24,190 nucleotides of DNA from a virus. The DNA lies in the IMG/VR virus record IMGVR_UViG_3300029787_000206, positions 7,657 to 31,846 of that record. One strand, given 5' to 3'. The translations under genes were made by a program, and so were the position numbers. The notes beneath the pieces are model-generated. The model was not told where the DNA came from. It saw nothing but the letters and a program-made list of their open reading frames with translations, and did no database searches. Positions within the stretch are counted from its first letter, which is position 1. Each line of letters starts with the position of its first letter. Shown here in pieces: positions 742 through 24,190 of this stretch.

Positions 742-1320
742 TTACTCTCTCCATCTTAAATTAAAACTTAAAATAATTCTATCTTGGTTAGAATTATTTT
801 GTTGTACTTCATGTTGTAACCATGAAGGAAAAAAAATCAAGTTATTCTCCTTTGCCTCCCACTGCACACTATGTGCAAAATGAACTGATAAATCTTGGTT
901 TTTAGGGGGATCAAGCACTTCGGCTTGTGGTCTTGGCTCTATAAAAACAAGATTACCGCTATTTTTTGGAACTTTTAAATAATAGACTCCAGATAAAAAA
1001 TTAAGTGGGTGTGTATGAACTGTGTTTCTAGCACCTGGTGGGTTTATCATACCCCATAATCCAGTCATTTCTGGACCATATTTTTTTTCTACACTTAATG
1101 CATTAAAACATTGTTGCGCTTGAAACATTATGTCTTGAGTTATTTCTTTAAAGTTTTCATCCAAATACAAATTTTCTTTGCTGTGCCATCCCTTTACATT
1201 TGATTTTGGTGATCCAACTTTATCTTGTTCTTGTAAATTATAAAGTTTCTGTTCTAAATTATAATTGTTCTCTAACTCTGTGGTAAACACAGGAGTAATA
1301 AACATACCTTGTAATTTCAT
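742..1320 (-). CDS. 2-oxoglutarate/Fe(II) oxygenase-like protein, TIGR02466 type (copy 1)
   Basis: A 192-residue protein matching the layout of the TIGR02466 group of 2OG-Fe(II) dioxygenase-fold proteins. These use iron and 2-oxoglutarate and typically hydroxylate a substrate; that of the group is unknown. Visible features are an HTHP motif (H102, H104) before SGVYYLKVP, then FFPSWLQHEV with the distal iron-ligand His (H170), then RIILSFN whose Arg (R181) would bind the 2-oxoglutarate carboxylate. The reading frame also has an ATG at 1326, but the AAAGG ribosome site touches that ATG and sits six bases before the one at 1320, so I prefer 1320. It lies one base upstream of the next gene. It is one of six oxygenase-like genes in this operon. 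Confidence 0.85.
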   Translation of the reverse strand: MKLQGMFITPVFTTELENNYNLEQKLYNLQEQDKVGSPKSNVKGWHSKENLYLDENFKEITQDIMFQAQQCFNALSVEKKYGPEMTGLWGMINPPGARNTVHTHPLNFLSGVYYLKVPKNSGNLVFIEPRPQAEVLDPPKNQDLSVHFAHSVQWEAKENNLIFFPSWLQHEVQQNNSNQDRIILSFNLRWRE

Positions 1321-1331
1321 ATTCATCCTTT

Positions 1332-1694
1332 CTAAAGTTGACCTTTTGTAACCTCCATAAAACTTACAATTATATGAACTTGGTTAGCAGCGTTGGCCTG
1401 TGCTTTTAATACATCAGATTCTTGCAAGACAAGAGGTTGCGATAATAATTCTGTTGTAGTGTTTGTCGCTACACTTTTTTGTTTAAATACTTCAAAAGTA
1501 GCAGAAGATCTAACAATTTCTAAATCTACTAATGTTGTACTACCAGAATCATTACAAATTAAAATAGATTTAATAACATCTGTTGTAGGTGGAACAGGAG
1601 GTGTAGCACCAGGATTCGCTGTGGGCACTGTTAGTATGGTTGTTAAATCTGTTGATGTCATATCAACCATTGCGCTTTTAAATGTATTAGCCAA
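1332..1694 (-). CDS. Small virion-type beta-rich protein, TTG start
   Basis: A 120-residue protein that appears to start at a TTG (1694-1692). A strong GGAGG ribosome site lies nine bases upstream, while the first in-frame ATG (codon 9, GCA-ATG-GTT) has none. The protein has a Thr/Pro-rich linker (residues about 20-40), then beta strands such as VIKSILICND and a final pattern of LQESDVLKAQ then VHIIVSFMEV. This strand pattern recurs in small structural proteins of marine tailed phages and suggests a decoration or tail-associated protein. It overlaps the preceding 55-residue gene by eight bases and lies between the gp10-like gene and an oxygenase gene. The structural role is inferred from context and fold pattern only. 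Confidence 0.7.
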   Translation of the reverse strand: MANTFKSAMVDMTSTDLTTILTVPTANPGATPPVPPTTDVIKSILICNDSGSTTLVDLEIVRSSATFEVFKQKSVATNTTTELLSQPLVLQESDVLKAQANAANQVHIIVSFMEVTKGQL

Positions 1695-1854
1695 GGAAAA
1701 AACCCTCCGACTCTGATTCTTCTTTTATATCCTGTTGATAGTTCGTATTTAATAAAAATATTATTTGATCGAGTAATCTTATCATCTGATCAAACTGACC
1801 AGCATCATACTCTGGTGTAGCGTTAGGTAATCTAGTAATTGTAATTTTAGCCAT
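1687..1854 (-). CDS. 55-residue hypothetical protein
   Basis: A small gene filling the gap between two larger ones. Its ATG (1854-1852) shares one base with the TAA of the upstream oxygenase gene (TAATG), and its own TAA (1689-1687) overlaps the next gene's TTG start by eight bases. The product begins MAKITITRLPN and contains a hydrophobic amphipathic stretch (QMIRLLDQIIFLLN, residues 23-36), then an acidic tail ending ESEGFFLG. The GGAGG inside its last codons serves as the ribosome site of the next gene. Exact end-to-end packing with both neighbours is good evidence for a real gene. Function is unknown; the helix could mediate self-assembly. Confidence 0.65.
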   Translation of the reverse strand: MAKITITRLPNATPEYDAGQFDQMIRLLDQIIFLLNTNYQQDIKEESESEGFFLG

Positions 1855-2312
1855 TAATCTTTTTTCTTATACCAGCACGTTAAAGTGTATCTGGCACCCT
1901 TTATAACATTTAAAACAGCGTGCTTATACATTTTTCCGTCCATATAATAAGTTCTACCTTTAATGGGAGCAATTTGTACGCCCTCTATAATAGCCTCACC
2001 TCCAACAAAATCTTCATTTAAAAAAGTAACAGATGTACCTGTTGTTTTGTCTGAAGCATGATCTAAATGAAAATTTTTAGAACACCCTGTGTCATATACT
2101 ACTACTTGTGACCAATCTACTTCATTAAACAATGGCAGACTATTGTTAAAGTCAGAATTTACTGTGTTTTTTACTTTTTGCACAATATCATTTGTTTGAG
2201 GAACGGTGACTTGTAGTGATTGATCCCAAGACAACCATTCCTGTTGTTCAACAAAAGGTCTTAATTGGTCAATATCTTCGTTAGATAAAACATGGTCTTT
2301 AATATATATCAT
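1854..2312 (-). CDS. Prolyl-4-hydroxylase-like 2OG-Fe(II) oxygenase (copy 2)
   Basis: A 152-residue protein made almost wholly of one dioxygenase domain. The classical iron triad is complete: H82 and D84 in FHLDHASD, then H131 in YKHAV, and R141 in GARYTL as the 2-oxoglutarate anchor. GGEAIIEGVQIAPIKGR between them is the strand pair typical of prolyl-4-hydroxylase-like enzymes. Such enzymes hydroxylate a side chain, releasing succinate and CO2; the substrate here is unknown. The start codon overlaps the stop of the gp10-like gene (ATGA), so expression is probably coupled to that tail protein. It differs clearly from the TIGR02466-type copies in the operon because it has HxD, not HxH. Confidence 0.87.
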   Translation of the reverse strand: MIYIKDHVLSNEDIDQLRPFVEQQEWLSWDQSLQVTVPQTNDIVQKVKNTVNSDFNNSLPLFNEVDWSQVVVYDTGCSKNFHLDHASDKTTGTSVTFLNEDFVGGEAIIEGVQIAPIKGRTYYMDGKMYKHAVLNVIKGARYTLTCWYKKKD

Positions 2313-4153
2313 CTTCTACCATCTGGTCTAATTTCTAATTTCTGTGAACCAAGTCTCCAAGGTGTATCATTTATTGTATTAGTTGTGTACCTTATTTTAA
2401 CAGCTCTTCCTCTACCCCTAACGCTTACTTTTTCTGTCGTGCTAGTGATACTTGCGTTTGATGTAACATTAGAAGAGGATTGAGGGTATTGCTCCAATGT
2501 AAGTCTAGCAGTCATAGTATTTGTTAAATTATCAAAATCTGGTACTAATTTGCTAATAGACATTAATTGATCACCATCGGCTATTTCTACAGAACCAGTT
2601 TCTAAAAATGCTGTTATAGCTGTCCCGTCCGCCTGATTATTGCCTGACTCATGTTCATATATAAATGAAGCTCCGGCTGTCAATCCTAATATTGTAGATA
2701 TGTTAGCTGTAGCACTTGCATTATATTCAGTAGCTATTGGTTTTTCATATACGTAAGCACCGAGCCATGTAGTTCTGCCTAAACCTACTGTGTACCAAGT
2801 TCCCTCTAAATAATTATAAGCCACAGCTCTATCTATTTGTGTTGCATTAGCTGAAGGATAATACCAAATTATCTCATTATATGCTGTGTTTAATCCTACA
2901 GCTATGTCGTTTTTATTTGTGTAACTTAAATCATCAAAAACAAAATCTTGCACAGAACATGGCATTTTTTTAACAACACCATCGTAAAGGTAGAAGGCAT
3001 CATCAGACATCCAATAAGCTACACCATTGACCTCTATGGCTGCATGTTGAGCTATAAGACCAGCATTTGCGCCTAGTTGTCTAAGACCAAAAGTAAATGG
3101 TGTACCCACAAACTGTATGCCGTGTAATGAGGTATCGGTCCAAACAAGTATTTGTCCTGCCGATTTGACAGCACCTATAATTTTTGAGCCGTCTGTTATC
3201 CTTAAAGATCCGGCTTCATTCGTAGCAACTGGTGTATAATCTGTTGCATCTTCTCGATCTGAGAATCTAAAAAATAAATCATCTTGGGTGCCAGCGCTGC
3301 CAATTGTAGTCTCTGTGCCAAATATTAATAAATGTCTTGTATCCGTTGAAACAATACTAAATCTTGATGCAGTTGGAGCATTAGATAAAGCCGTAGCTCT
3401 TGTGCCTGTTCCTGCAGACGTGTCCCAAATAAATGTGCCACCATCTAAAGCAGTAGCAATTAAGTCCTCACCAAAATTATCTAAAGACCAGTTTCTACCA
3501 ACAAGAACTACATCCGATGAAGAACTTGCTGTGCCCCAAGTGCTACTACTCCAAGTATCTGTTCCCCATCCAAGTCCATATGTAGACGTCGCTGGTCCAA
3601 CATTAATTTGATATTTTGCGTTACCTGAGCCACCACCTCCAGATGTTGATCCAGATGCTGTGCTAGTGTGCGTTACTGTGTAATTATTTGCATCGGTTAT
3701 AGATGTAATTTCAAATTCTTGATTCATATCTAAGCCGTCAATTGATGAAAAAGAATCAAAAGTTACAAAATCTCCCTTGATTGCGTTATGAGTGCTATCT
3801 GCTACAGACACTGTAGTAGAACCATTAGTTGTAAATGGATTAGTTAGTGCTTGTGTCTCACGGATAGGTGTAATGTCGTAAACAGCTCCCTCGTTGTAAA
3901 TATACAGTTTTCTATCTGTGCCTAGGGCTAAATATCTTAAACCATCTAATCCTACCCATGAATGAGTATCTCTCACTACTCCTACAATTGTTTTGTTAGG
4001 ATTAGGTAGATTTGTCCATCCACCCCATCTTTCTGGTTTTCCGTAGTGAAATCTTACAAAATCAGAATCTATGTATTTACGTTCATCTCCTGCAGAGTAA
4101 GCTGTGTCTTGTTTATCTACGCCTGGGCGAAATTTAAGGTCTACTAATTGCAT
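2309..4153 (-). CDS. P22 gp10-like tail hub / packaged-DNA stabilisation protein
   Basis: A 614-residue structural protein. The N-terminus (LKFRPGVDKQDTAYSAG, then FVRFHYGKPERWGGW) matches the start of the large podovirus protein family related to P22 gp10. That protein is a tail accessory factor that plugs the portal after packaging and seats the tail needle or spike. Beta-propeller-like repeats follow (YLALGTDRKLYIYNEG; LLIFGTETTIG). A serine/glycine-rich insertion lies at about residues 165-180 and a Trp/Ser-rich stretch at about 195-215, both common in this family. No ribosome site is obvious before the ATG, which sits 15 bases after the glycosyltransferase stop, so reinitiation is likely. 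Assignment rests on the N-terminal pattern and overall architecture. Confidence 0.75.
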   Translation of the reverse strand: MQLVDLKFRPGVDKQDTAYSAGDERKYIDSDFVRFHYGKPERWGGWTNLPNPNKTIVGVVRDTHSWVGLDGLRYLALGTDRKLYIYNEGAVYDITPIRETQALTNPFTTNGSTTVSVADSTHNAIKGDFVTFDSFSSIDGLDMNQEFEITSITDANNYTVTHTSTASGSTSGGGGSGNAKYQINVGPATSTYGLGWGTDTWSSSTWGTASSSSDVVLVGRNWSLDNFGEDLIATALDGGTFIWDTSAGTGTRATALSNAPTASRFSIVSTDTRHLLIFGTETTIGSAGTQDDLFFRFSDREDATDYTPVATNEAGSLRITDGSKIIGAVKSAGQILVWTDTSLHGIQFVGTPFTFGLRQLGANAGLIAQHAAIEVNGVAYWMSDDAFYLYDGVVKKMPCSVQDFVFDDLSYTNKNDIAVGLNTAYNEIIWYYPSANATQIDRAVAYNYLEGTWYTVGLGRTTWLGAYVYEKPIATEYNASATANISTILGLTAGASFIYEHESGNNQADGTAITAFLETGSVEIADGDQLMSISKLVPDFDNLTNTMTARLTLEQYPQSSSNVTSNASITSTTEKVSVRGRGRAVKIRYTTNTINDTPWRLGSQKLEIRPDGRR

Positions 4154-4167
4154 AATTTTATAATAAA

Positions 4168-4950
4168 TTACTTATTGTTTTGAGGCAAGAATTGAGTTCC
4201 AACATTGCCTTTAAAAGCATAATTTCCGTAATGTGTCATACCAGATAGAATATCAGCGTATATTTTACCACCCATATTTTGCCATAAACGGCAGAAAGCG
4301 TAGTCTTCAGATAGATATCTTTTAGTTTGTGGCTCTATCATGGTGTCAAAAAAAGCATAGTTCCAATCAGATGTTTTATGGTAATCAAATTCTTTTTCAT
4401 GAGATTGGTTGATGTGCTGATCGGGTTTAAATTTAAGATCCGGATATATTCTTGCCATACGTTCAAATACTTGTCTTTTAATCATCATAAAACCTGTGGG
4501 TCCATCTAATACTTCAATAAAGCCTTTGTTTAACAATATTTTTTTGGGATCTTTTACATTTAAATTATATTGTAATGAAGCAGCCAAAAGCTCATCTTCT
4601 GACATGTCCGGGTTGTCTTTAAGTCTTTGTTTTACTTTTATCCAATCTATAGTTTTTCTTGGATAAATACCAGTAACAACATCTTTGTCATAATCTAACA
4701 TTCTTATAACTGAGTCTGGATTGAAACCTAAATCAGCATCAACAAATAAAAGATGTGTGTAGTCGCCATCCATAAATAATTGAACAAGAGTATTTCTTGC
4801 TCTGGTTATTAGTGATTCATTACCAATGGTTCCAAACTGTAATTCTATTTTGTTAGTGGATGCAAGAGATATAAGTTGCATACAGCTTTTAAAATACTCT
4901 GTTGTAATAAGTCCGCCATAACAAGGTGTTCCGATAAAAATTTTATTCAT
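4168..4950 (-). CDS. GT-A fold glycosyltransferase
   Basis: A 260-residue protein with a GT2-like Rossmann start (NKIFIGTPCYGG), a conserved SLITRARN segment, and the metal/nucleotide-sugar-binding DxD motif in LLFVDADLGF (DAD at residues 71-73). LDGPTGFMMIKRQVF and LSEDYAFCRLW further on are the acceptor-side motifs, with SED a candidate catalytic acid/base region. It would transfer a sugar from a nucleotide-sugar to an unknown acceptor in the cytoplasm. An in-frame ATG exists at 4986, but the fold begins right after the ATG at 4950, and that start overlaps the upstream gene by eight bases as its neighbours do. It lies between a tail gene and oxygenase genes, so sugar addition to hydroxylated virion proteins is a possible role. 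Confidence 0.85.
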   Translation of the reverse strand: MNKIFIGTPCYGGLITTEYFKSCMQLISLASTNKIELQFGTIGNESLITRARNTLVQLFMDGDYTHLLFVDADLGFNPDSVIRMLDYDKDVVTGIYPRKTIDWIKVKQRLKDNPDMSEDELLAASLQYNLNVKDPKKILLNKGFIEVLDGPTGFMMIKRQVFERMARIYPDLKFKPDQHINQSHEKEFDYHKTSDWNYAFFDTMIEPQTKRYLSEDYAFCRLWQNMGGKIYADILSGMTHYGNYAFKGNVGTQFLPQNNK

Positions 4951-5467
4951 GTTTAGGACCATAAATTTGTATGTTAGATGAAACAATTATTCTCTCTAAA
5001 TCTTCACTGTATGAAACGTAGTGCCACAATGTAGAAGGAAAAATAATTAATTTACCTAATATTGATTCTTCATCATATACTCTTTGGTTTGTTGTATTAT
5101 GCGGTGATAAAAATGTCGTAGCACCACCATTTGTTAAATAAAGTACAGTAGAAAAGTTTACACCCACTGAATCGTGTTGGTGCGCACCATGTATAGAATT
5201 ATTACCATAAACAGCCGTCCAATAATTTAAAAGATTCAATGTTAACCCTTCATTGGAATATTTATTTGCAACTTCATTGATTAATTTTTCATACTCATAA
5301 AGTTGTATTGGGTTTTTATAATCTGTAAAATAATTATGTGAGCTTGATGTTTTTGTAATTAAATTTTTTTTACTGTTCACTTCATCTACTAAAGGTTTTA
5401 TCTCTTCGTCATTAAATTGAAATATTTGTAATGTTGTTGCAAATAGATTTCTTTTATTTATTTTCAC
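4943..5467 (-). CDS. 2-oxoglutarate/Fe(II) oxygenase-like protein, TIGR02466-like (copy 3)
   Basis: A 174-residue protein. It has HGAHQHDS (H96, H98, D99) followed by a FSTVLYLTNGG strand region, then IIFPSTLWHYV (H149) and ERIIVSSN (R159). These are the iron-binding and 2-oxoglutarate-binding positions of the TIGR02466-like dioxygenase fold. The open frame extends to 5584, but its extra N-terminus only reads the preceding gene in another frame. I chose the GTG at 5467 (then AAAATAAATAAA), which gives the usual short start and a 14-base overlap with the upstream gene like its neighbours. The ribosome site there is weak (AGAG). Substrate unknown. Confidence 0.78.
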   Translation of the reverse strand: MKINKRNLFATTLQIFQFNDEEIKPLVDEVNSKKNLITKTSSSHNYFTDYKNPIQLYEYEKLINEVANKYSNEGLTLNLLNYWTAVYGNNSIHGAHQHDSVGVNFSTVLYLTNGGATTFLSPHNTTNQRVYDEESILGKLIIFPSTLWHYVSYSEDLERIIVSSNIQIYGPKHE

Positions 5468-5978
5468 TACTATTCTCTTTATAAAAAATATTAAGCGTGT
5501 ATCTTTCAGAACTATCACCAAAAGATTGTAAGTCGGAGTGTAATATTTTACTGCCATTAAAAAATAAAGCTCTGTTTTCAACAAAACCTATATGCGAAGA
5601 TAATTGATTATTGTAAATGAAACCAGTCCCATTATTTAACAGGGGCTTACCTTTTACATAAAATAAAAAATTGGCTACATTTCCCTTATTGGTATCAATA
5701 TGAAATAAAGGCTCTTTGTCATTCTGTCGTAAATGAGCACTAACTGATATAGGCTCTAAATTTCTATTAGGAAAAAAATAATTTTTAATTAATTTTAATA
5801 AAGGATCATTGTGAAAACTTTCTGGAAAAGTATGTCTATGGCCATAAACCTTACCATCTGGGTTTTTTACTTCCATGTAACCAATTTTTGTAAAGGTTTC
5901 TTGTAATGATTTTAATGTTTCAATTGATAAAAAATTATCAACATACATAACAAATTCTGTATTACTATTGTGTTGCAT
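5454..5978 (-). CDS. 2OG-Fe(II) oxygenase, HxD type (copy 4)
   Basis: A 174-residue protein. The N-terminal helix region (FLSIETLKSLQETF) is typical of prolyl-4-hydroxylase-like enzymes. The catalytic triad is readable as H93 and D95 in LFHIDTNKGN, H147 in KILHSD, and R159 in SERYTLNIFY. HVGF-like strands and GTGFIYNNQLSSHIGF form the double-stranded beta helix between them. It has no membrane segment. The ATG at 5978 overlaps the upstream gene by 14 bases without a clear ribosome site; Met11 is an alternative start. Substrate is unknown. Sequence similarity to the HxD copy at 1854 is low by eye, so the two are not a recent duplication. Confidence 0.82.
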   Translation of the reverse strand: MQHNSNTEFVMYVDNFLSIETLKSLQETFTKIGYMEVKNPDGKVYGHRHTFPESFHNDPLLKLIKNYFFPNRNLEPISVSAHLRQNDKEPLFHIDTNKGNVANFLFYVKGKPLLNNGTGFIYNNQLSSHIGFVENRALFFNGSKILHSDLQSFGDSSERYTLNIFYKENSSENK

Positions 5979-6486
5979 ATACGTTAAATGATAATGATAT
6001 TCTTCTTTTGTCTGAATCCATAACTCTGTGATGCAAATCTCCAGGCCAGAAATACAAATCTCCTTTTTTTGGTGTTAATTTTTTTGTATTATCTTCAGGG
6101 AAAGTAGCAAATTCTATATCTGAATTTTCATCATTAATATATAAAGTGCCTGCAGCAAATGCAGGTTTATGAGTGTGATAGTCCTGATATCCGTATCTAT
6201 CTAATAAATTTACCCATGATTCATTTATTAAAAAAGGTATATTTTGTTCATTTTTTTCAAAATAATTTCTAAGTTGTTCTTCTATTTCATTTTTAATGTC
6301 TTTAAAATCTACTACGTTATGCAAAACATTTTGAGATAAACTAAGAGATGTTTTTACGTTATCACCCCATGCTCTTTTTTTAAATTTACCTTCATACATG
6401 TTTACGTATTTTTCTATTAAATGTAATTTGTCGATGTTTATTTTAGTTTTAACAACTGATATTTTTTTAATTATTATTTCTTCCAT
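5965..6486 (-). CDS. 2-oxoglutarate/Fe(II) oxygenase-like protein, TIGR02466-like (copy 5)
   Basis: A 173-residue protein. The C-terminal half carries DYHTHKPAFAAGTLYI (H104, H106), then DLYFWPGDLHHRV (distal His H153), then RRISLSFN (R162). This is the TIGR02466-type arrangement, with WPGD where other copies have FPSW. The N-terminal half is helical and highly charged (lysine-rich first 40 residues, then DIKNEIEEQLRNYFEKNEQ), perhaps for substrate or partner binding. The gene overlaps both neighbours (20 bases upstream, 14 downstream). The ribosome site is weak, so translational coupling to the small gene upstream is likely. Substrate unknown. Confidence 0.82.
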   Translation of the reverse strand: MEEIIIKKISVVKTKINIDKLHLIEKYVNMYEGKFKKRAWGDNVKTSLSLSQNVLHNVVDFKDIKNEIEEQLRNYFEKNEQNIPFLINESWVNLLDRYGYQDYHTHKPAFAAGTLYINDENSDIEFATFPEDNTKKLTPKKGDLYFWPGDLHHRVMDSDKRRISLSFNVYATQ

Positions 6487-6754
6487 AACTTACTTCTAAA
6501 TACTCTATTTTTCTAACCCAACCACGAGGTATTGCTATTGCGCCACCACCATGATTATCGTCCCTGTCAACACACCATGACCTCATAATTACTATTTTGT
6601 CTTCATTGTCTACAACCATGTATCCTACTTCTTGGCACACGGCCAACGGAGCAGTGACAATATCTTTAATATGCACCCAACCAGTTTCTGTATCTTTTGC
6701 ATCATGCCATGTAATTCTTACCATGGGAAAGGGTGTATTAGAGCTCTTGTTCAT
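6467..6754 (-). CDS. Conserved small phage protein of unknown function
   Basis: A 95-residue protein that I associate with a recurring marine-phage family: VRITWHDAKDTETGW near the start, a central MVVDNEDKIVIMRS, then GGGAIAIPRGWVRKIEYL. The look is a small beta-barrel or SH3-like domain. No catalytic residues are evident. AGAAGG lies directly against the ATG at 6754, poor spacing, so the start could be Met11 (6724), where the conserved region begins. It overlaps oxygenase genes on both sides (17 bases upstream, 20 downstream), which ties its expression to them, but no role in their chemistry can be shown. Conservation is from memory of similar proteins, not from a search. Confidence 0.72.
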   Translation of the reverse strand: MNKSSNTPFPMVRITWHDAKDTETGWVHIKDIVTAPLAVCQEVGYMVVDNEDKIVIMRSWCVDRDDNHGGGAIAIPRGWVRKIEYLEVSYGRNNN

Positions 6755-7415
6755 CCTTCTCTTTTTTTCTTTTAACAGTTACATTGAAAGACACAGATCT
6801 TCTTTCTTCGTCCTTTGTCCTAAACGGGTAAACCATGTGCGAAAGCCAAGATGGAAACAAATATATGTCTCCTACCTTTGGTGTTGCTTGAAATGTATGT
6901 CCATTAAAAGTAGCAGCTTGTCCACACTGCCATTGAATATCTCCTACACAAGGAAAATGATCCTCCTCGTCATATTCTTTTTTTAAATTTGGAGGTATTC
7001 TTAAATATATTACACCAGAAAGATCACCATCATGTACATGTGATGGATTAAAATCACCTGACCACTGTGATACAACCCACATGCTTGTTATTAATATTTT
7101 TTCTACTTTGTCTGGAGAAATAGTATTGACCATAGGTGGGTGTTCTAAGTATTTGTGTATTATCATTTGTAAAGAATTACTCATTGGAGCAAACTCTGTT
7201 GATATCATCCAGGCAGGTGGATACCTAACTTCTTGTTTTACATTACCTGCAAGATGCATAGAGTGATCCCAATCCTTAGACATTTTTTCACTATCCATAA
7301 TATCAGATGCTTTGTCGTCTAATAATTTAATTAATGATTCAGGTAATGAACCTTTAAAAATAGTAGGACCAAAAGGCCTAAAAGCCTGAAATTCGTGTTT
7401 TAACTGCTCTGCCAT
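6738..7415 (-). CDS. 2-oxoglutarate/Fe(II) oxygenase-like protein, TIGR02466 type (copy 6), first gene of the operon
   Basis: A 225-residue protein, the longest oxygenase of the set. It has SGDFNPSHVHDGDLSGVIYL (H126, H128, D129), then YLFPSWLSHMVYPF (H193) and ERRSVSFNV (R205), the standard TIGR02466 layout. A cysteine-containing insertion between the halves (HFPCVGDIQWQCGQ, residues 153-166) is absent from the other copies. The tail is lysine-rich. The ATG at 7415 has an AAAGGA ribosome site at seven bases and lies about 60 bases downstream of a predicted leftward promoter, so this is the operon's lead gene and probably well expressed. The likely activity is hydroxylation of an unknown substrate. 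Confidence 0.87.
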   Translation of the reverse strand: MAEQLKHEFQAFRPFGPTIFKGSLPESLIKLLDDKASDIMDSEKMSKDWDHSMHLAGNVKQEVRYPPAWMISTEFAPMSNSLQMIIHKYLEHPPMVNTISPDKVEKILITSMWVVSQWSGDFNPSHVHDGDLSGVIYLRIPPNLKKEYDEEDHFPCVGDIQWQCGQAATFNGHTFQATPKVGDIYLFPSWLSHMVYPFRTKDEERRSVSFNVTVKRKKEKDEQEL

Positions 7416-15899: not shown

Positions 15900-16102
15900 T
15901 TGAGATAAATTTTAAAAACGCCGTTTGGTTCGGTATAATTCTCGTGTCCGCAGGTATATCCTACGGTATGGTTTCCCAGAAACTAGAGGCTCTAGAAACA
16001 AAGCAACTATTAATAGAAAAGGCAATAATGCAAGACATACCAGAAATAAAAGAACGAGTAATACGACTCGAAATATTGTTAGAAGAAGCATTAAGCAAAT
16101 AA
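15896..16102 (+). CDS. Small single-TM coiled-coil protein, holin- or spanin-like
   Basis: A 68-residue protein, last of the rightward structural operon, starting inside the previous stop (ATGA). One hydrophobic segment spans residues 9-26 (VWFGIILVSAGISYGMV). It is followed by a regular heptad helix to the end (QKLEALETKQLLIEKA and on to IRLEILLEEAL). A short cytoplasmic end, one membrane span and a coiled coil fit small phage membrane proteins such as a holin, i-spanin or tail-associated anchor. Lysis function is not provable because no endolysin is in the window. The stop overlaps the convergent helicase gene by 12 bases. Confidence 0.6.
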   Translation: MIEINFKNAVWFGIILVSAGISYGMVSQKLEALETKQLLIEKAIMQDIPEIKERVIRLEILLEEALSK

Positions 16103-17527
16103 AATTTTCTTTGGGTCTTCACCCATAACTTTACTAGCTAAATCAATTTTATTATTTAATGAATTAACAATCTTTTCATCGATTGTACCTTCAGTCATTA
16201 AATCAATATATGTAACTTTATCTTTTTGCCCTATCCTGTGTGCACGGTCCTCGGACTGCATGCGCACTTCTAGGCTGTAATCGTTAGAATAATACACAAC
16301 AGTGTGACTGCAAGTAAGAGTAAGGCCATAGCCCCCTGTCTTTGGGTTTCCGATAAAAAATCTAAGGTCACTGTCACTATCCATAAAACTGTCAACAATA
16401 GACTGCCGTATAGAATCCTTAGTATCCCCATAATAGCTTGCCACAGTCTCTTTACCATACTCATTCGCTATCTCCTTTTCTATAGTTTGTATGTCATGAC
16501 GGAACACGGCCCATATAATAACCTTACCATCTGTTTCTTCTAATACTTGTAATAATTCTTTTATCCTATTATTTTTTAATGTTCTAACTTCACCATCATC
16601 TGTTTTTACATGACCACAAACTATTTGATGTAGTCTTGTCATTTGTGTTAACACTGATGCCGCTGTCATTGGATTGTCTTCAAAGAAAGTCATAGCTTGT
16701 TTTTTCATCTCAACATATGCTTTCAATTGTTCTGGTGTCATTGACACAACTCTTTTAGTGTAAAGTTTATCTGGTAAATCTAAACAGTTTTCTTTTAATA
16801 TTCTTGTAGAAAAATTATGAAGGATGGCTGTAAGCTCATCTAATCGTTGATAACTAACGACGTGTTGAAAAGAATGTGAGCCTACGTTTCTCTGTTGTAT
16901 TACAGCATATCTTGCACGAAACGCGTAATAATTTGATTGCTCCAACAACCACGGCCCAAGGAACTCTACTTGTGAAAACAAATCTAAAGGAGATTTTGTT
17001 ACAGGAGATCCTGTCATGATGCGTCTATACTTTGCAAGATTAGCTATCTTCATAATATTTTTTGTTCTTCTAGCCGAATGATTTTTAATGGTGGTGGACT
17101 CATCAACAACCATGAAACAAAAACCAGGCAAAACAAAACTACGTGCAAAATCCAAACCTCTTCCTGTGGATAAAGCCTCTATATTCATAATTAGTATTTG
17201 TAACTTATCGCTCATTTGACATACATTCATGAGCTCTATCTGTTCTTTCTTTTTTGGTGAAGCCACCCAAACAGCATCCATATACTCTACGTGATCTGGC
17301 ATATGCACAGATAATTCCTTACGCCAGTTTCTTTTAATACCGTTTGGTGCAATAACTAATGCAGATTTTATCTTGCCTCTGTCATACAACATAGCAATAT
17401 TATCTATACAAACCTTGGTTTTTCCTGTGCCCATTTCCATAAACCAAGCCCACGCTTCTTTGTTCCAGCTTTTTTTAAGCGCCTGTAATTGATGCTTGAA
17501 CGGTTTTGTTTTAAATCTATAATCCAT
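16091..17527 (-). CDS. SNF2-type superfamily 2 helicase/translocase
   Basis: A 478-residue protein with all main SF2/SNF2 motifs. The Walker A is MGTGKTK (residues 32-38). The Walker B is VVDEST (140-145), where most relatives have DEAH or DExH. Motif III is MTGSP (171-175), and motif VI is QSEDRAHRIGQ (424-434), with the DRAHRIGQ core typical of the SNF2 family. The protein should use ATP to translocate on double-stranded DNA, for example to clear proteins or regress forks. The length is minimal for the family, with no added domains. It is read leftward between two rightward operons, and its end overlaps the small membrane protein gene by 12 bases. Confidence 0.9.
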   Translation of the reverse strand: MDYRFKTKPFKHQLQALKKSWNKEAWAWFMEMGTGKTKVCIDNIAMLYDRGKIKSALVIAPNGIKRNWRKELSVHMPDHVEYMDAVWVASPKKKEQIELMNVCQMSDKLQILIMNIEALSTGRGLDFARSFVLPGFCFMVVDESTTIKNHSARRTKNIMKIANLAKYRRIMTGSPVTKSPLDLFSQVEFLGPWLLEQSNYYAFRARYAVIQQRNVGSHSFQHVVSYQRLDELTAILHNFSTRILKENCLDLPDKLYTKRVVSMTPEQLKAYVEMKKQAMTFFEDNPMTAASVLTQMTRLHQIVCGHVKTDDGEVRTLKNNRIKELLQVLEETDGKVIIWAVFRHDIQTIEKEIANEYGKETVASYYGDTKDSIRQSIVDSFMDSDSDLRFFIGNPKTGGYGLTLTCSHTVVYYSNDYSLEVRMQSEDRAHRIGQKDKVTYIDLMTEGTIDEKIVNSLNNKIDLASKVMGEDPKKILFA

Positions 17528-19329: not shown

Positions 19330-20856
19330 ATGGATGAAAGAAAAAAATTTATAGAAATATTCTCGGGCTTGACCAGAGCTTATGGTCAAACGCAAAGCAG
19401 ACACAAAAATGAAGCTGGTAAACTAGAAGCTAAGTCTTGGATAGTAAAAGAAGATTTAACAGAACAAAGATGGACAGATCATTTAGATGGTAAAGAACCA
19501 TCACTTGGTATTATACCAATTAGAGATGATAATAGCTGTACATGGGGTGCAATTGATATTGATACCTACGATGGATTTGATCATAAAAAATTAGTTAGTA
19601 AAATAGTAGAGAAGAAACTACCGCTCGTAGTGTGTAAATCAAAGAGTGGCGGTGCGCATGTATTTTTATTCTTGCGACAAGCATGTAGTGCAAAAGATAT
19701 GCAGATGAAGTTGGCTGAGATAGCAGCATGGCTTGGTTATGGTGAGAGTGAAGTCTTTCCAAAACAAATTGAGTTAAATGCAAAGGGTACAGGTAATTTT
19801 TTAAACTTGCCTTACAACCATCCAGAATATCCAACCAGGTATGCCTTAAACGACGAAGGTAATGCATTAGATACATTAAAACTTTTTATAGAATATTACG
19901 AGACTAAAGTTTTAGAAACGATTACAGATGTAATTATTGATAAACCAGTCACAGAAAAAAAGAATGACGATTGGAAAGGTGCACCACCTTGTTTAGTTAC
20001 ACTTGCATCAATGGGCTTTGCTCAAGGCTCACGGAACCAATGCATGTTTCAATTGGGTGTGTATTTACGACAAAGATTTCCTGACGATTTAGAAGACAAG
20101 CTTGATTATTATAATTCTAAATATTTTGATCCACCATTACCAAGTAGAGAGGTACAAACAATATTTAAACAAGTAAGTGATGAAAAGTATTTTTATAAAT
20201 GTGAGGAACCTACATTTAAAATAGTTTGTGAGAAAATAAAATGTCGATCTAGAAAACATGGCATAGGTAATTCTGCAAACAATGACATACATAGTTTAAA
20301 GAAGTGGCAGTCAGACAATCCTGTATATGAAGTCACACATAATGGTAAAGTTATTATCTTATCATTAGATCAATTATCAAATCACGGTGACTATCGTAAA
20401 CAATGCATAGCTCAAGCGAATGAAAGCCCACGGCCCATGCAACCAGCCGTGTGGGCAGACATAGTAGATCAATTATTAAAAGCAATGACAGAGGGTGATG
20501 TAATTGTGTTGCCAGAAGAAGTTACTGCAAAAGGTCAATTTAGAGATTTATTAAAAACATTTTTAGAAAACAATGGCGGTGCAAAAGATAGACAAGATGT
20601 ACTACAAGGCATGGTTTATCAACATGAAACTTATTTATTTTTTAAGTCACAATCTTTTAAAGATTTTTTAAAAATGAAAAGATTTACAAAAGTATCTGAC
20701 TCACATCAATTTAAAATATTTACAGAATTTGGCGGAAATCTAACAAAATTTAAAGTAAATAACAAAGCTGAACATTGTTGGAAGATACCTGCTAATTTTA
20801 TCAATGTTGATTTTACTTTAATTAATAAAGACTTCACAGAAGAAGAGCCATACTAA
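19330..20856 (+). CDS. Archaeo-eukaryotic-type primase with a PriL-like cysteine domain
   Basis: A 508-residue protein. The AEP catalytic core has WGAIDIDTYD (D76 and D78, metal binding), then SKSGGAHVFLFL (residues 104-115, with the AEP His at 110), then a IELNAKGTGNFLNLPYNHP segment (residues 147-165). A second domain at about residues 217-313 starts GAPPCLVTLA (C221) and ends YKCEEPTFKIVCEKIKC (C291, C300, C305), resembling the Fe-S-binding primase large-subunit layout. It should make primers on ssDNA. A GTG at 19297 opens the frame earlier, but it lies within the hairpin stem. ATG 19330 has an AGG site, so I chose it. The C-terminal 170 residues are not recognised. Confidence 0.8.
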   Translation: MDERKKFIEIFSGLTRAYGQTQSRHKNEAGKLEAKSWIVKEDLTEQRWTDHLDGKEPSLGIIPIRDDNSCTWGAIDIDTYDGFDHKKLVSKIVEKKLPLVVCKSKSGGAHVFLFLRQACSAKDMQMKLAEIAAWLGYGESEVFPKQIELNAKGTGNFLNLPYNHPEYPTRYALNDEGNALDTLKLFIEYYETKVLETITDVIIDKPVTEKKNDDWKGAPPCLVTLASMGFAQGSRNQCMFQLGVYLRQRFPDDLEDKLDYYNSKYFDPPLPSREVQTIFKQVSDEKYFYKCEEPTFKIVCEKIKCRSRKHGIGNSANNDIHSLKKWQSDNPVYEVTHNGKVIILSLDQLSNHGDYRKQCIAQANESPRPMQPAVWADIVDQLLKAMTEGDVIVLPEEVTAKGQFRDLLKTFLENNGGAKDRQDVLQGMVYQHETYLFFKSQSFKDFLKMKRFTKVSDSHQFKIFTEFGGNLTKFKVNNKAEHCWKIPANFINVDFTLINKDFTEEEPY

Positions 20857-22469
20857 TGTATAGGAACATAGTCATTGGTCCACCAGGCACGGGCAAAACA
20901 ACTTTTCTTAAAAATAAAGTATTTGATATTTTAAAAGAAGCTAAAGCAACATCTAATGAAATAGCATATTTAAGTTTTACAGTTAAAGCAGCAGAAGAAA
21001 TAAGAGACAGAGTTAATTTAAAAGAGATGTCACAAGTCGAGCTTAAAAGATCTTATCCTTATTTTTGTACGTTACATTCTTTAGCCTATAAATGTTTACG
21101 ATTAGAACCAGGAGAGATTATGGATGAAGCAGACTACGAGAATCTTTGTTTGCTTACCGGTCGTAAGTTTGTCAATAAAATGAAAAAAGGTAACGGCATG
21201 GACATATCGATGCCCACGGCCCAGAGCCACTATCAAGACACAATTAATCTTGCATACGCTAAGTATCCAAACGATGAAGATAGATTACAGAAAATATTTA
21301 GAGAAGTAAAACTTTCTGATTACGGTGCAAGAAGAACAATAGAACAAATGGATGTTGATCTTGTTAATTATAAAAAAGATAGACACAAATTAGAATACGT
21401 TGATTACTTTAAAACATTTTTACAATGTAAAAACCCACCACCACTTAAATATTTATTTGTTGATGAAGCTCAAGATTTATCTGTGCATCAATGGATGGTT
21501 GTTGATATGATTCAAAAAATATCAAAGCCTATTGAAACTTATGTCGCTGGTGATGATGATCAGGCTATATTTCGTTGGGCAGGTGCAGACATAGAACACT
21601 TTATAGCCATGGCTAATAATGATGCCAACAAAATAATTCCTTTAACACAATCTTATCGTGTGCCTAAAAGTGTGCACACTCTTGCCACAAAAATGGCACA
21701 GTCAATTACCAACAGAATAGAAAAATCATATAGACCACGAGACGAAGAAGGTGAAAGAAAAGTATTAGCTTTCAGACCGTTAAACAAAAGTTTGGCGGAT
21801 GGTGAGTGGTTAATATTATGTCGTACACATGAGATTGTAAAACAAGTGTGTAATGCATTAGATTCTTTTGGTTGGTTATACAAATGTTATGGCAAGTCTA
21901 TTGTTGATGAAAAAATTATAGAGGCGATTAGAGCATGGACCGACTTACAAAAAGGTAGAAATATATCTGGTGCAAGAGCTGATACACTTTATAATTTTAT
22001 GGACAGCACAAGAATAAAAAGAGGTTACGGTGTATTCAAAGGTGATCATACAAAAACATACAACGTCCATGATCTTATTGGTAACTTTGGTTTACGCGAA
22101 AACATTTCTGATTTGTTTACTCCATCATTAAATTGGTATGATGTATTAAATGCTAAGGGTGTTAAAAAAAGAATAAATTATTTACGTCAAGTTATGCGTA
22201 ATAAAAATAAATTAGATGACAAACCACGTATTGAAGTCTCTACCATACACGCAAGTAAAGGTGGTGAGAGAGACAATGTTATGCTATTAACAGACTTATC
22301 GTATGGTCCTTACAGATCTTCACAAGATACATTGCAAGGACGTGATGATGAGGCAAGAGTTTTTTACGTGGGTGCCACACGCGCTAAGAAGAAGTTAGTA
22401 ATCGTGCATACAACGGAGGCGCAGTTTGAATACGAACCAATTTTCTTTCATGAGAGACAAGCCAGTTAA
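20856..22469 (+). CDS. UvrD/PcrA-like superfamily 1 DNA helicase
   Basis: A 537-residue protein, shorter than bacterial UvrD (about 700). The SF1 motifs are Walker A GPPGTGKTT (8-16), AYLSFTVKAAEEIRDRV (Ia region), Walker B VDEAQD (202-207), AGDDDQAIFRW (231-241), QSYRVP (265-270), STIHASKGGERD in the C-terminal half (motif V), and VGATRAKKKL (505-514, motif VI). It uses ATP to unwind DNA 3' to 5' in the family. Given the primase before it and the polymerase after, it is the likely replicative or fork-restart helicase, as no DnaB-type gene is in view. The start shares a base with the primase stop (TAATG). Confidence 0.9.
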   Translation: MYRNIVIGPPGTGKTTFLKNKVFDILKEAKATSNEIAYLSFTVKAAEEIRDRVNLKEMSQVELKRSYPYFCTLHSLAYKCLRLEPGEIMDEADYENLCLLTGRKFVNKMKKGNGMDISMPTAQSHYQDTINLAYAKYPNDEDRLQKIFREVKLSDYGARRTIEQMDVDLVNYKKDRHKLEYVDYFKTFLQCKNPPPLKYLFVDEAQDLSVHQWMVVDMIQKISKPIETYVAGDDDQAIFRWAGADIEHFIAMANNDANKIIPLTQSYRVPKSVHTLATKMAQSITNRIEKSYRPRDEEGERKVLAFRPLNKSLADGEWLILCRTHEIVKQVCNALDSFGWLYKCYGKSIVDEKIIEAIRAWTDLQKGRNISGARADTLYNFMDSTRIKRGYGVFKGDHTKTYNVHDLIGNFGLRENISDLFTPSLNWYDVLNAKGVKKRINYLRQVMRNKNKLDDKPRIEVSTIHASKGGERDNVMLLTDLSYGPYRSSQDTLQGRDDEARVFYVGATRAKKKLVIVHTTEAQFEYEPIFFHERQAS

Positions 22470-22599
22470 TAATAAATATTTAGATGATTTAGATAAAGCT
22501 GCTGCAAAGCATCTTGTTAAACTTGGTGTAGAAAAAAATTGGAAAGATGTTTTACGTCGTATGCAAAACAGAAGGAAGAAACGTGAAAGATCAACCTAA
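22450..22599 (+). CDS. 49-residue basic protein between helicase and polymerase
   Basis: A small gene starting inside the last codons of the helicase (ATG 22450) and running into the polymerase start (TAA at 22597-22599, a 17-base overlap). The product starts MRDKPVNNKYLDDLDKAA, then has a helix HLVKLGVEKNWKDVLRRM, and ends in a very basic tail (NRRKKRERST). Its own ribosome site is not clear (tight coupling). The polymerase's AAGGA site is inside it. A DNA- or polymerase-binding accessory peptide is possible. The overlap at both ends and helical make-up support it, but the gene is short. Confidence 0.55.
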   Translation: MRDKPVNNKYLDDLDKAAAKHLVKLGVEKNWKDVLRRMQNRRKKRERST

Positions 22600-24190
22600 T
22601 TGGTTTCCTAAAGTACATCGCATGCCTAGTGAATGGGTTATGCCTGATAGTTTTCCAGATTTATCTGGTTATGATGAAATAGCGATTGATTTAGAAACAA
22701 GAGATCCAGGTATCAAGGACAAAGGACCAGGTTACATTCGTAAAGATGGAGAAGTTGTCGGTATTGCTGTAGCAGTAGAAGGGTGGTGTGGTTACTTTCC
22801 CATCGCCCACGAAACACCGCCCAACATGGATAAAGGTATTGTATCAAAATGGTTAAAAAAACAATGTAGTTACGAAGATAAAAATTATATTTTTCATAAC
22901 GCTTTTTATGATGTAGGTTGGTTAAAGACGCTTGGTGTTGACATAAAAGGTAAAATAATAGACACTCTTATTGCTGCACCACTCGTAGATGAGAATAGGT
23001 TTAGATTTGATTTAAACACATTAAGTAAAGATTATCTACAAGAGTCAAAATCTGAAGCCCAACTTTACGAGGCAGCAAAGATGTGGGGATTAGATCCCAA
23101 AGGAGAGTTGTGGAAGCTACCAGCTTCTCATGTCGGAGAGTATGCAGAGCAAGATGCAGCTGTTACCTTAAAACTTTGGAATCACTTACGCACAGAAATA
23201 TTAAAACAAAATTTATCTAACATTTTTGAACTAGAAACGGACCTTTTTCCAGTTTTATTTGACATGAAACAAAAGGGCGTTAGAGTCGATTTAGACAAAG
23301 CAGATATAATAAAAAAAGATTTACAAAAAAAAGAAAATGAAATCCTTCGATCCATTAAAAAGCTTGCTGGCATTGACGTCGAAGTCTGGGCTGCCGCTAG
23401 CGTTGCAAAAGCATTCGATCGTCTTTCGTTGCCATATGATACTACACCAACAGGGAAACCAAAGTTTGACAAGAACTTTCTTGCGACTCATGATAGCCCG
23501 CTTGCTAAAATGGTTGTCGAGTGTCGTGAGATTAACAAAGCGCGAACGACTTTTATCGATACCATCCTCAAGCATTCGCACAGAGGGAGGATACACGCTG
23601 AGATCCACCAAATGCGCTCCGACCAAGGTGGAACGGTAACAGGTAGATTTAGTTACAGTAATCCTAATTTACAGCAAATTCCTGCACGACACGCGATTCT
23701 CGGCCCACTGATCAGAAGTATATTTATTCCTGAAAAAAATTGTGAGTGGGGTATATTCGATTACTCGCAACAAGAACCAAGACTCGTTGTGCATTATGCA
23801 AGTTTAAAAAATTATTTAGGTGCAAACAAATTTGTTGATTCATATCTCAATGATGACAGTACAGATTTTCATAAAATGGTATCTGAGATCGCAGACATAC
23901 CTCGTAAGTTAGCTAAGACAATTAACTTAGGTTTATTTTATGGTATGGGTAAGGGTAAACTTATGTCACAACTTGGGGTAAACTTAGAAGATGCAACAGA
24001 GATGCTTGCTAATTACAATGAACGCGTTCCATTTGTTAAACAATTAATGAATGATACGATGAGTAGAGCAGGTAAAAAAGGTTTTCTATCTACGATCGAA
24101 GGTCGCAGGTGTCGGTTTGAAGAATGGGAACCAATTAATGAATGGGGTAAAAAATCATTACCACTTAAAGAAGCACAACAAGAATACGGT
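22583..24190 (+). CDS. polA: Family A DNA polymerase with proofreading exonuclease, 3' end beyond the window
   Basis: 536 codons are visible. The N-terminal 3'-5' exonuclease has AIDLETRD (D36, E38), NYIFHNAFYDVGWL (D110) and YAEQDAAVTLKLW (D191). The polymerase palm shows motif A, FDYSQQEPRL (D393), and motif B, RKLAKTINLGLFYG (R441, K445, L449, Y453). The residue aligned with E. coli Pol I Phe762 is Leu here. No 5' nuclease domain is present. The GTG at 22583 follows AAGGA at six bases; ATG 22622 is a shorter alternative. It lacks its C-terminal end in this window. It copies the phage genome from primers made by the neighbouring primase. Confidence 0.92.
   Translation, partial: MKDQPNWFPKVHRMPSEWVMPDSFPDLSGYDEIAIDLETRDPGIKDKGPGYIRKDGEVVGIAVAVEGWCGYFPIAHETPPNMDKGIVSKWLKKQCSYEDKNYIFHNAFYDVGWLKTLGVDIKGKIIDTLIAAPLVDENRFRFDLNTLSKDYLQESKSEAQLYEAAKMWGLDPKGELWKLPASHVGEYAEQDAAVTLKLWNHLRTEILKQNLSNIFELETDLFPVLFDMKQKGVRVDLDKADIIKKDLQKKENEILRSIKKLAGIDVEVWAAASVAKAFDRLSLPYDTTPTGKPKFDKNFLATHDSPLAKMVVECREINKARTTFIDTILKHSHRGRIHAEIHQMRSDQGGTVTGRFSYSNPNLQQIPARHAILGPLIRSIFIPEKNCEWGIFDYSQQEPRLVVHYASLKNYLGANKFVDSYLNDDSTDFHKMVSEIADIPRKLAKTINLGLFYGMGKGKLMSQLGVNLEDATEMLANYNERVPFVKQLMNDTMSRAGKKGFLSTIEGRRCRFEEWEPINEWGKKSLPLKEAQQEYG

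Follow-up and report, generated by a model that had tools for sequence, protein, structure and literature searches.

A four-cysteine PriCT-1 module in a one-chain primase of a bacterial-phage family

Known relatives of the phage primase

Primases that unite PriS-like and PriL-like parts in one chain have been reported from the Thermococcus plasmid pTN2, from Nanoarchaeum equitans and from the Bacillus provirus phBC6A51 (PMC3973330). The initial annotation of the phage DNA described here had called a one-chain version in a bacterial phage notable; given these precedents, it is less exceptional than that. The phBC6A51 protein is a PriS-PriL fusion in a bacterial provirus, and its activity, PMC3973330 states, is unconfirmed in vitro. 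The pTN2 enzyme, PolpTN2, resembles the phage primase in having four cysteines (PMC3973330) and an adjoining helicase gene; a C-terminal winged helix has also been reported for it (PMC5862659). However, it is approximately 920-945 aa long, with a fuller PriL-like region behind PriCT-1, and when the two proteins are compared by Pfam domains they have none in common.

Human and yeast PriL and PriX are separate subunits, whereas the phage primase is one chain. PriCT-1 is homologous to the larger Fe-S half (Fe-S_N) of the PriL C-terminal domain (PriL-CTD); PriCT-2 and PriX are also related (PMC5862659). This earlier link between PriCT and PriL was drawn from compared structures and from two alignable cysteines in PriCT-2. 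The design itself, a one-chain PriS-PriL enzyme and the kinship of PriCT with PriL, is already published (pTN2 and phBC6A51 in PMC3973330; PMC5862659).

The nearest solved AEP core is that of MpCAPP and MsCAPP (7nqf, 7p9j), which also have a CTD/PriCT with conserved cysteines (PMC8211822). CAPP differs from the phage primase in its N-terminal TPR. In all 29 covering sequences among the CAPP proteins L115, L116, L119 and L134-L163, the CAPP CTD has three invariant cysteines and a near-invariant PLLH-like motif, which suggests that it has a metal site of its own; hhalign found no similarity between the phage PriCT module and this CTD.

Full-length homologues of the phage primase, of the PHROG 21866 type, are found in Phage DSL-LC04, phage 023Pt_psg01, Salmonella PMBT28, Acinetobacter DMU1 and Pelagibacter HTVC023P. 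They have approximately 23-39% identity to it, and their motifs and four cysteines are alike; the records say only 'primase' or 'hypothetical protein' and mention no metal site. In the open-access literature, no phage AEP with a described Fe-S site was found beyond PMC5862659 and PMC3973330. Within that literature, a four-cysteine PriCT-1 domain in a widespread phage family, and the joint occurrence of its cysteines across bacterial AEPs, seem to be undescribed.

Catalytic core and four-cysteine module

The window analysed is a 24,190-nucleotide stretch of the IMG/VR virus record IMGVR_UViG_3300029787_000206. The primase gene and its catalytic core are as follows; the conservation given for the motifs refers to the homologue sets described below.

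19330-20856, + strand: primase gene, 508 aa; ATG at 19330, stop at 20854-20856 (open reading frame and translation)
19330-19914, + strand: AEP (PriS-like) catalytic core, approximately residues 1-195; AEP-TOTE PF22548, E = 5e-14
19555-19563, + strand: motif I, D76-I-D78; acidic residues invariant in both homologue sets
19645-19659, + strand: motif II, S106-G-G-A-H110; S and H invariant in relatives
19750-19764, + strand: motif III candidate, E141-V-F-P-K145; E invariant and aligned to that of EIFPKQ in CAPP

Translation could also begin at an in-frame GTG (19297); near relatives begin at the methionine of the ATG at 19330. The reading frame matches PHROG 21866 'primase' (E = 4.9e-84). Homologues are carried by 25 phage records, and there are at least 600 matches in IMG/VR; a phmmer search of PDB sequences with the whole primase gave nothing useful. 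A DnaG-type or helicase-fused primase was ruled out, as no such domain was found with Pfam or PHROGs. The protein is probably the replicative primase of the phage, a one-chain AEP enzyme in which the PriCT-1 module would do the job of PriL-CTD (probability about 0.7).

The core had been annotated as AEP/PriS-like, and this is confirmed. PF22548 spans residues 25-164 above its cut-off, motifs I-III are invariant, and the predicted fold matches CAPP (Foldseek E approximately 1e-9); together these place the protein in the AEP superfamily, in the AEP-TOTE/CAPP branch. The closest solved structures are the CAPP prim-pols 7nqf and 7nqd from Marinitoga (profile E = 8e-20). E141 is consistent with what would be E260 of MsCAPP (PMC10345425).

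The core is followed by the helical module and its conserved residues:

19966-20268, + strand: PriCT-1 domain with four-cysteine site (PriL-CTD-like start module), approximately residues 213-313; PF08708 and AF2 domain model
19990-19992, + strand: C221, first cysteine (PPC), within helix 220-228 where the bundle begins, preceded by two prolines (conservation, AF2)
20032-20034, + strand: R235, the arginine of GxR[ND], in the first turn of helix 232-249; probably contacts the initiating NTP (conservation, AF2, analogy)
20200-20202, + strand: C291, second cysteine (Y-x-Y-x-C), after the bundle (conservation)
20227-20229, + strand: C300, third cysteine, between short helices 294-299 and 302-306 (conservation, AF2)
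20242-20244, + strand: C305, fourth cysteine, inside short helix 302-306 (conservation, AF2)

The reading frame, DID, GGAH, the four cysteines and the PPC at the first of them all lie where the initial annotation had put them. PriCT_1 (PF08708) matches residues 230-283 with 24.6 bits (E = 1.8e-5) in the whole chain and 28.1 bits (E = 1.6e-6) in the domain alone; both exceed the curated cut-off of 21.1 bits, and 68 of 74 family members match the profile. The AF2 model of the domain has a core pLDDT of approximately 90. Compared with viral models by Foldseek, it matches PriCT-1-type primases only, and a profile search of PDB sequences with the domain alone gave no match.

Two homologue sets, together spanning approximately 23-79% identity to the primase, were used to judge conservation. 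All 83 IMG/VR homologues spanning the region, at 36-79% identity, keep C221, R235, C291, C300 and C305, and the spacing 14/56/9/5 is the same in 79 of these. The wider phage alignment contains 19 proteins; all four cysteines are found in 18, each of which also has the arginine (18/18). The sole exception, L016, is without a PriCT-1 domain. C359 is likewise invariant in the 83 rows but not in the wider set, so invariance in the nearer set alone is not telling.

The same cysteines occur as a set outside the phage family. Bacterial genome contigs were scanned with the CAPP core as query, and PriCT-1 domains were gathered from genomes of three bacterial phyla; approximately 46 were read. A cysteine ahead of the GxRN arginine (C1) is present in eight, and all eight also have the cysteine after the bundle (C2), in an aromatic-x-x-C or similar setting. 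Seven of the eight have all four cysteines and one (L220) has three; three of the eight are themselves members of the phage family (from genome G142). Neither C1 nor C2 is found in at least 30 domains, and a lone stray cysteine lies near the C2 position in two. The co-occurrence of C1 and C2 has a Fisher p of 6e-7, a value that ignores kinship and so overstates independence. As C1 and C2 are present together or absent together, bar the two strays, they appear to behave as one metal site.

The four-cysteine form is also found in small bacterial AEPs (L100, L126-L128), which hhalign aligns with the phage module at 90% (E = 2e-6). In a further three proteins (L192, L195, L223) the set accompanies an AEP core that looks different. 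With the full set around PriCT-1 in a large phage family and in several bacterial AEPs, there is a small one-chain protein on which the disputed role of the primase cluster could be tested directly; the cysteine-free PriCT-1 primases are its natural contrast.

Two minor observations may be added. One PriCT-1 domain with all four cysteines (L227) is encoded in an open frame of 286 residues in which no AEP core is obvious. Three full-length members of the primase family (L130, L132, L133) occur in one bacterial assembly (G142); these are perhaps prophages or phage contigs.

Likeness to PriL and the probable metal centre

The protein had been annotated as a PriS-like core joined to a PriL-like domain with cysteines spaced as in primase large subunits. 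Part of this stands: an AEP core is fused to PriCT-1, cysteines flank the module, and an arginine is in the matching place. The C1-Arg-C2 order is common to the phage module and to human and yeast PriL-CTD (3l9q, 3lgb), and the spacing is near (14 and 56 residues, against 19 and 61 in human PriL). The C2-C3-C4 spacing is different (9 and 5, against 17 and 40), and no direct match to PriL appeared. The PriL profile PF04104 (DNA_primase_lrg) matched neither the whole chain nor the domain. In hhalign, the PriCT-1 module gave 1% against two eukaryotic PriL-CTDs, human and yeast, whereas archaeal PriL would be the most suitable partner; the human query was identical to the PDB sequence letter for letter, and the yeast residues came from the PDB alignment. 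Foldseek with the domain model found no significant match in the PDB and no PriL. The only sensible match was PriX (4wyh), which has a PriL-CTD-like fold, and it is weak (TMt 0.48, rmsd 3.0, E = 8.4). A PriL-like fold is nevertheless expected in the phage module from the published kinship of PriCT-1, PriCT-2, PriX and PriL-CTD (PMC5862659). A PriS-like core and a PriL-CTD-like start module in one chain is well supported as a way of working. Assignment to the PriL family is not supported; with no direct link to PriL and with a differing C2-C3-C4 spacing, the module is not filed there.

The missing PriL match, by sequence or by fold, is also what would be seen if the cysteine pattern were a chance resemblance, made up of unrelated, unpaired cysteines in a fast-evolving phage protein. 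This is very improbable, and it was rejected on conservation: the cysteines are invariant in all covering homologues and recur as a set in other AEP lineages, which is far beyond chance. The four cysteines probably hold an Fe-S or zinc centre, judging from their pattern of conservation. By analogy with PriL, a 4Fe-4S cluster may be placed slightly ahead of zinc. Two cysteines flank the PriCT bundle and two are in the cap, an arrangement that recalls PriL. A structural zinc that stabilises the PriCT-1 cap, and is not equivalent to the PriL cluster, is a serious competitor at somewhat under even odds. The C-x8-C-x4-C after the bundle is unlike the PriL spacing, and the shortness of the cap (helices 294-299 and 302-306) favours zinc somewhat. 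AEP enzymes often have zinc sites close to the active site (PMC4434180), and PriCT and zinc-binding domains alternate behind the AEP cores of PrimQH proteins (PMC5862659). Against zinc, C1 lies 70 residues ahead of C2, at the first PriCT helix; PriL has a similar long reach, a local zinc knuckle does not. The placing of two cysteines at the bundle and two in the cap resembles the sharing of the PriL cluster between two subdomains (PMC4434180). The nearest tested fusion, the four-cysteine PolpTN2, is light brown when pure (PMC3973330).

R235 is likely to contact the initiating NTP. By sequence position and predicted helix, it would be the counterpart of R72 in PriX, R306 in the human and R355 in the yeast protein, where the central helix begins; these arginines are required for primer start (PMC5700102). 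Its position suggests that the module holds the start nucleotide and works together with the AEP core as part of one chain. The GxR[ND] arginine is common in cysteine-free PriCT-1 domains too. The metal is not necessarily functional, since Sulfolobus primase starts primers with the cluster-free PriX, which supports priming in the absence of the PriL Fe-S domain (PMC5700102). It is also conceivable, though rather unlikely, that the module is mainly an accessory for template binding or DNA opening and that the AEP core starts primers alone, as in CAPP. The core is closest to that of CAPP, which in isolation, without the CTD, is an efficient primase in vitro (PMC10345425), so that the phage module may assist rather than be essential; ColE2 Rep unwinds DNA with PriCT-1 plus HTH (PMC5862659). 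However, the arginine of GxR[ND] is invariant in the phage family, at the place of the PriX/PriL initiation arginine, and models of full-length CAPP also place the CTD at the initiating nucleotide (PMC10345425).

A further and more speculative reading is somewhat less probable than its opposite. The family would have kept a PriL-type 4Fe-4S start module in a bacterial-phage prim-pol, and the metal-free PriCT-1 domains of plasmids and phages would have descended from it by loss of the entire cluster. On this reading, PriL-CTD and PriCT-1 would be connected through this family, as a missing link.

C-terminal domains, neighbouring genes and proposed mode of action

Two further domains follow the module, and two replication genes follow the primase:

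20284-20484, + strand: small alpha/beta domain, approximately residues 319-385 (AF2 secondary structure)
20512-20799, + strand: probable C-terminal winged-helix domain, approximately residues 395-490; H-H-E-E-H-H-E-E order (AF2)
20856-22469, + strand: UvrD-type SF1 helicase; PF00580, E = 7e-30; start codon overlaps the primase stop
22547-24190, + strand: family A DNA polymerase; PF00476, E = 1e-45; truncated where the contig ends

A stretch of 100 residues in the primase model matches TcpK, a DNA-binding protein (5vfx; TMt 0.65, probability 1.0), and this stretch appears to be the C-terminal winged-helix region. A UvrD-like or ATP-dependent helicase comes next after the primase in six relatives (L006, L007, L011-L014). 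The primase-helicase-PolA order recurs in relatives; a helicase and a family A polymerase directly downstream fit a replicative role.

A mode of action can be proposed for the one-chain enzyme. The core (D76, D78, E141; S106/H110) would link the first nucleotide to the second along a single-stranded template. R235 of the helical module would hold the first nucleotide, the later 5' end of the primer, by its triphosphate. The four cysteines would pin the ends of the module around one metal centre: C221 at the first helix, C291 past the bundle, and C300 and C305 in the cap. The C-terminal winged helix may add a DNA contact. The adjoining family A polymerase would then take over the primer, and the UvrD-type helicase would open the duplex.

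Some other genes in and near the window may be mentioned. Upstream of the replication genes, 16091-17527 on the - strand encodes a SNF2-type helicase; in Phage DSL-LC04 this place is taken by a HepA-type helicase. By Pfam, one phage region contains six genes that resemble 2OG-Fe(II) oxygenases: five at window positions 742-7415 (- strand) and one just upstream of the window, at L201:7191-7646 (- strand). Within this region, 4168-4986 encodes a possible glycosyltransferase (sub-threshold scores), and the reading frame at 5454-5978, which has no Pfam match, resembles another 2OG-Fe(II) oxygenase.
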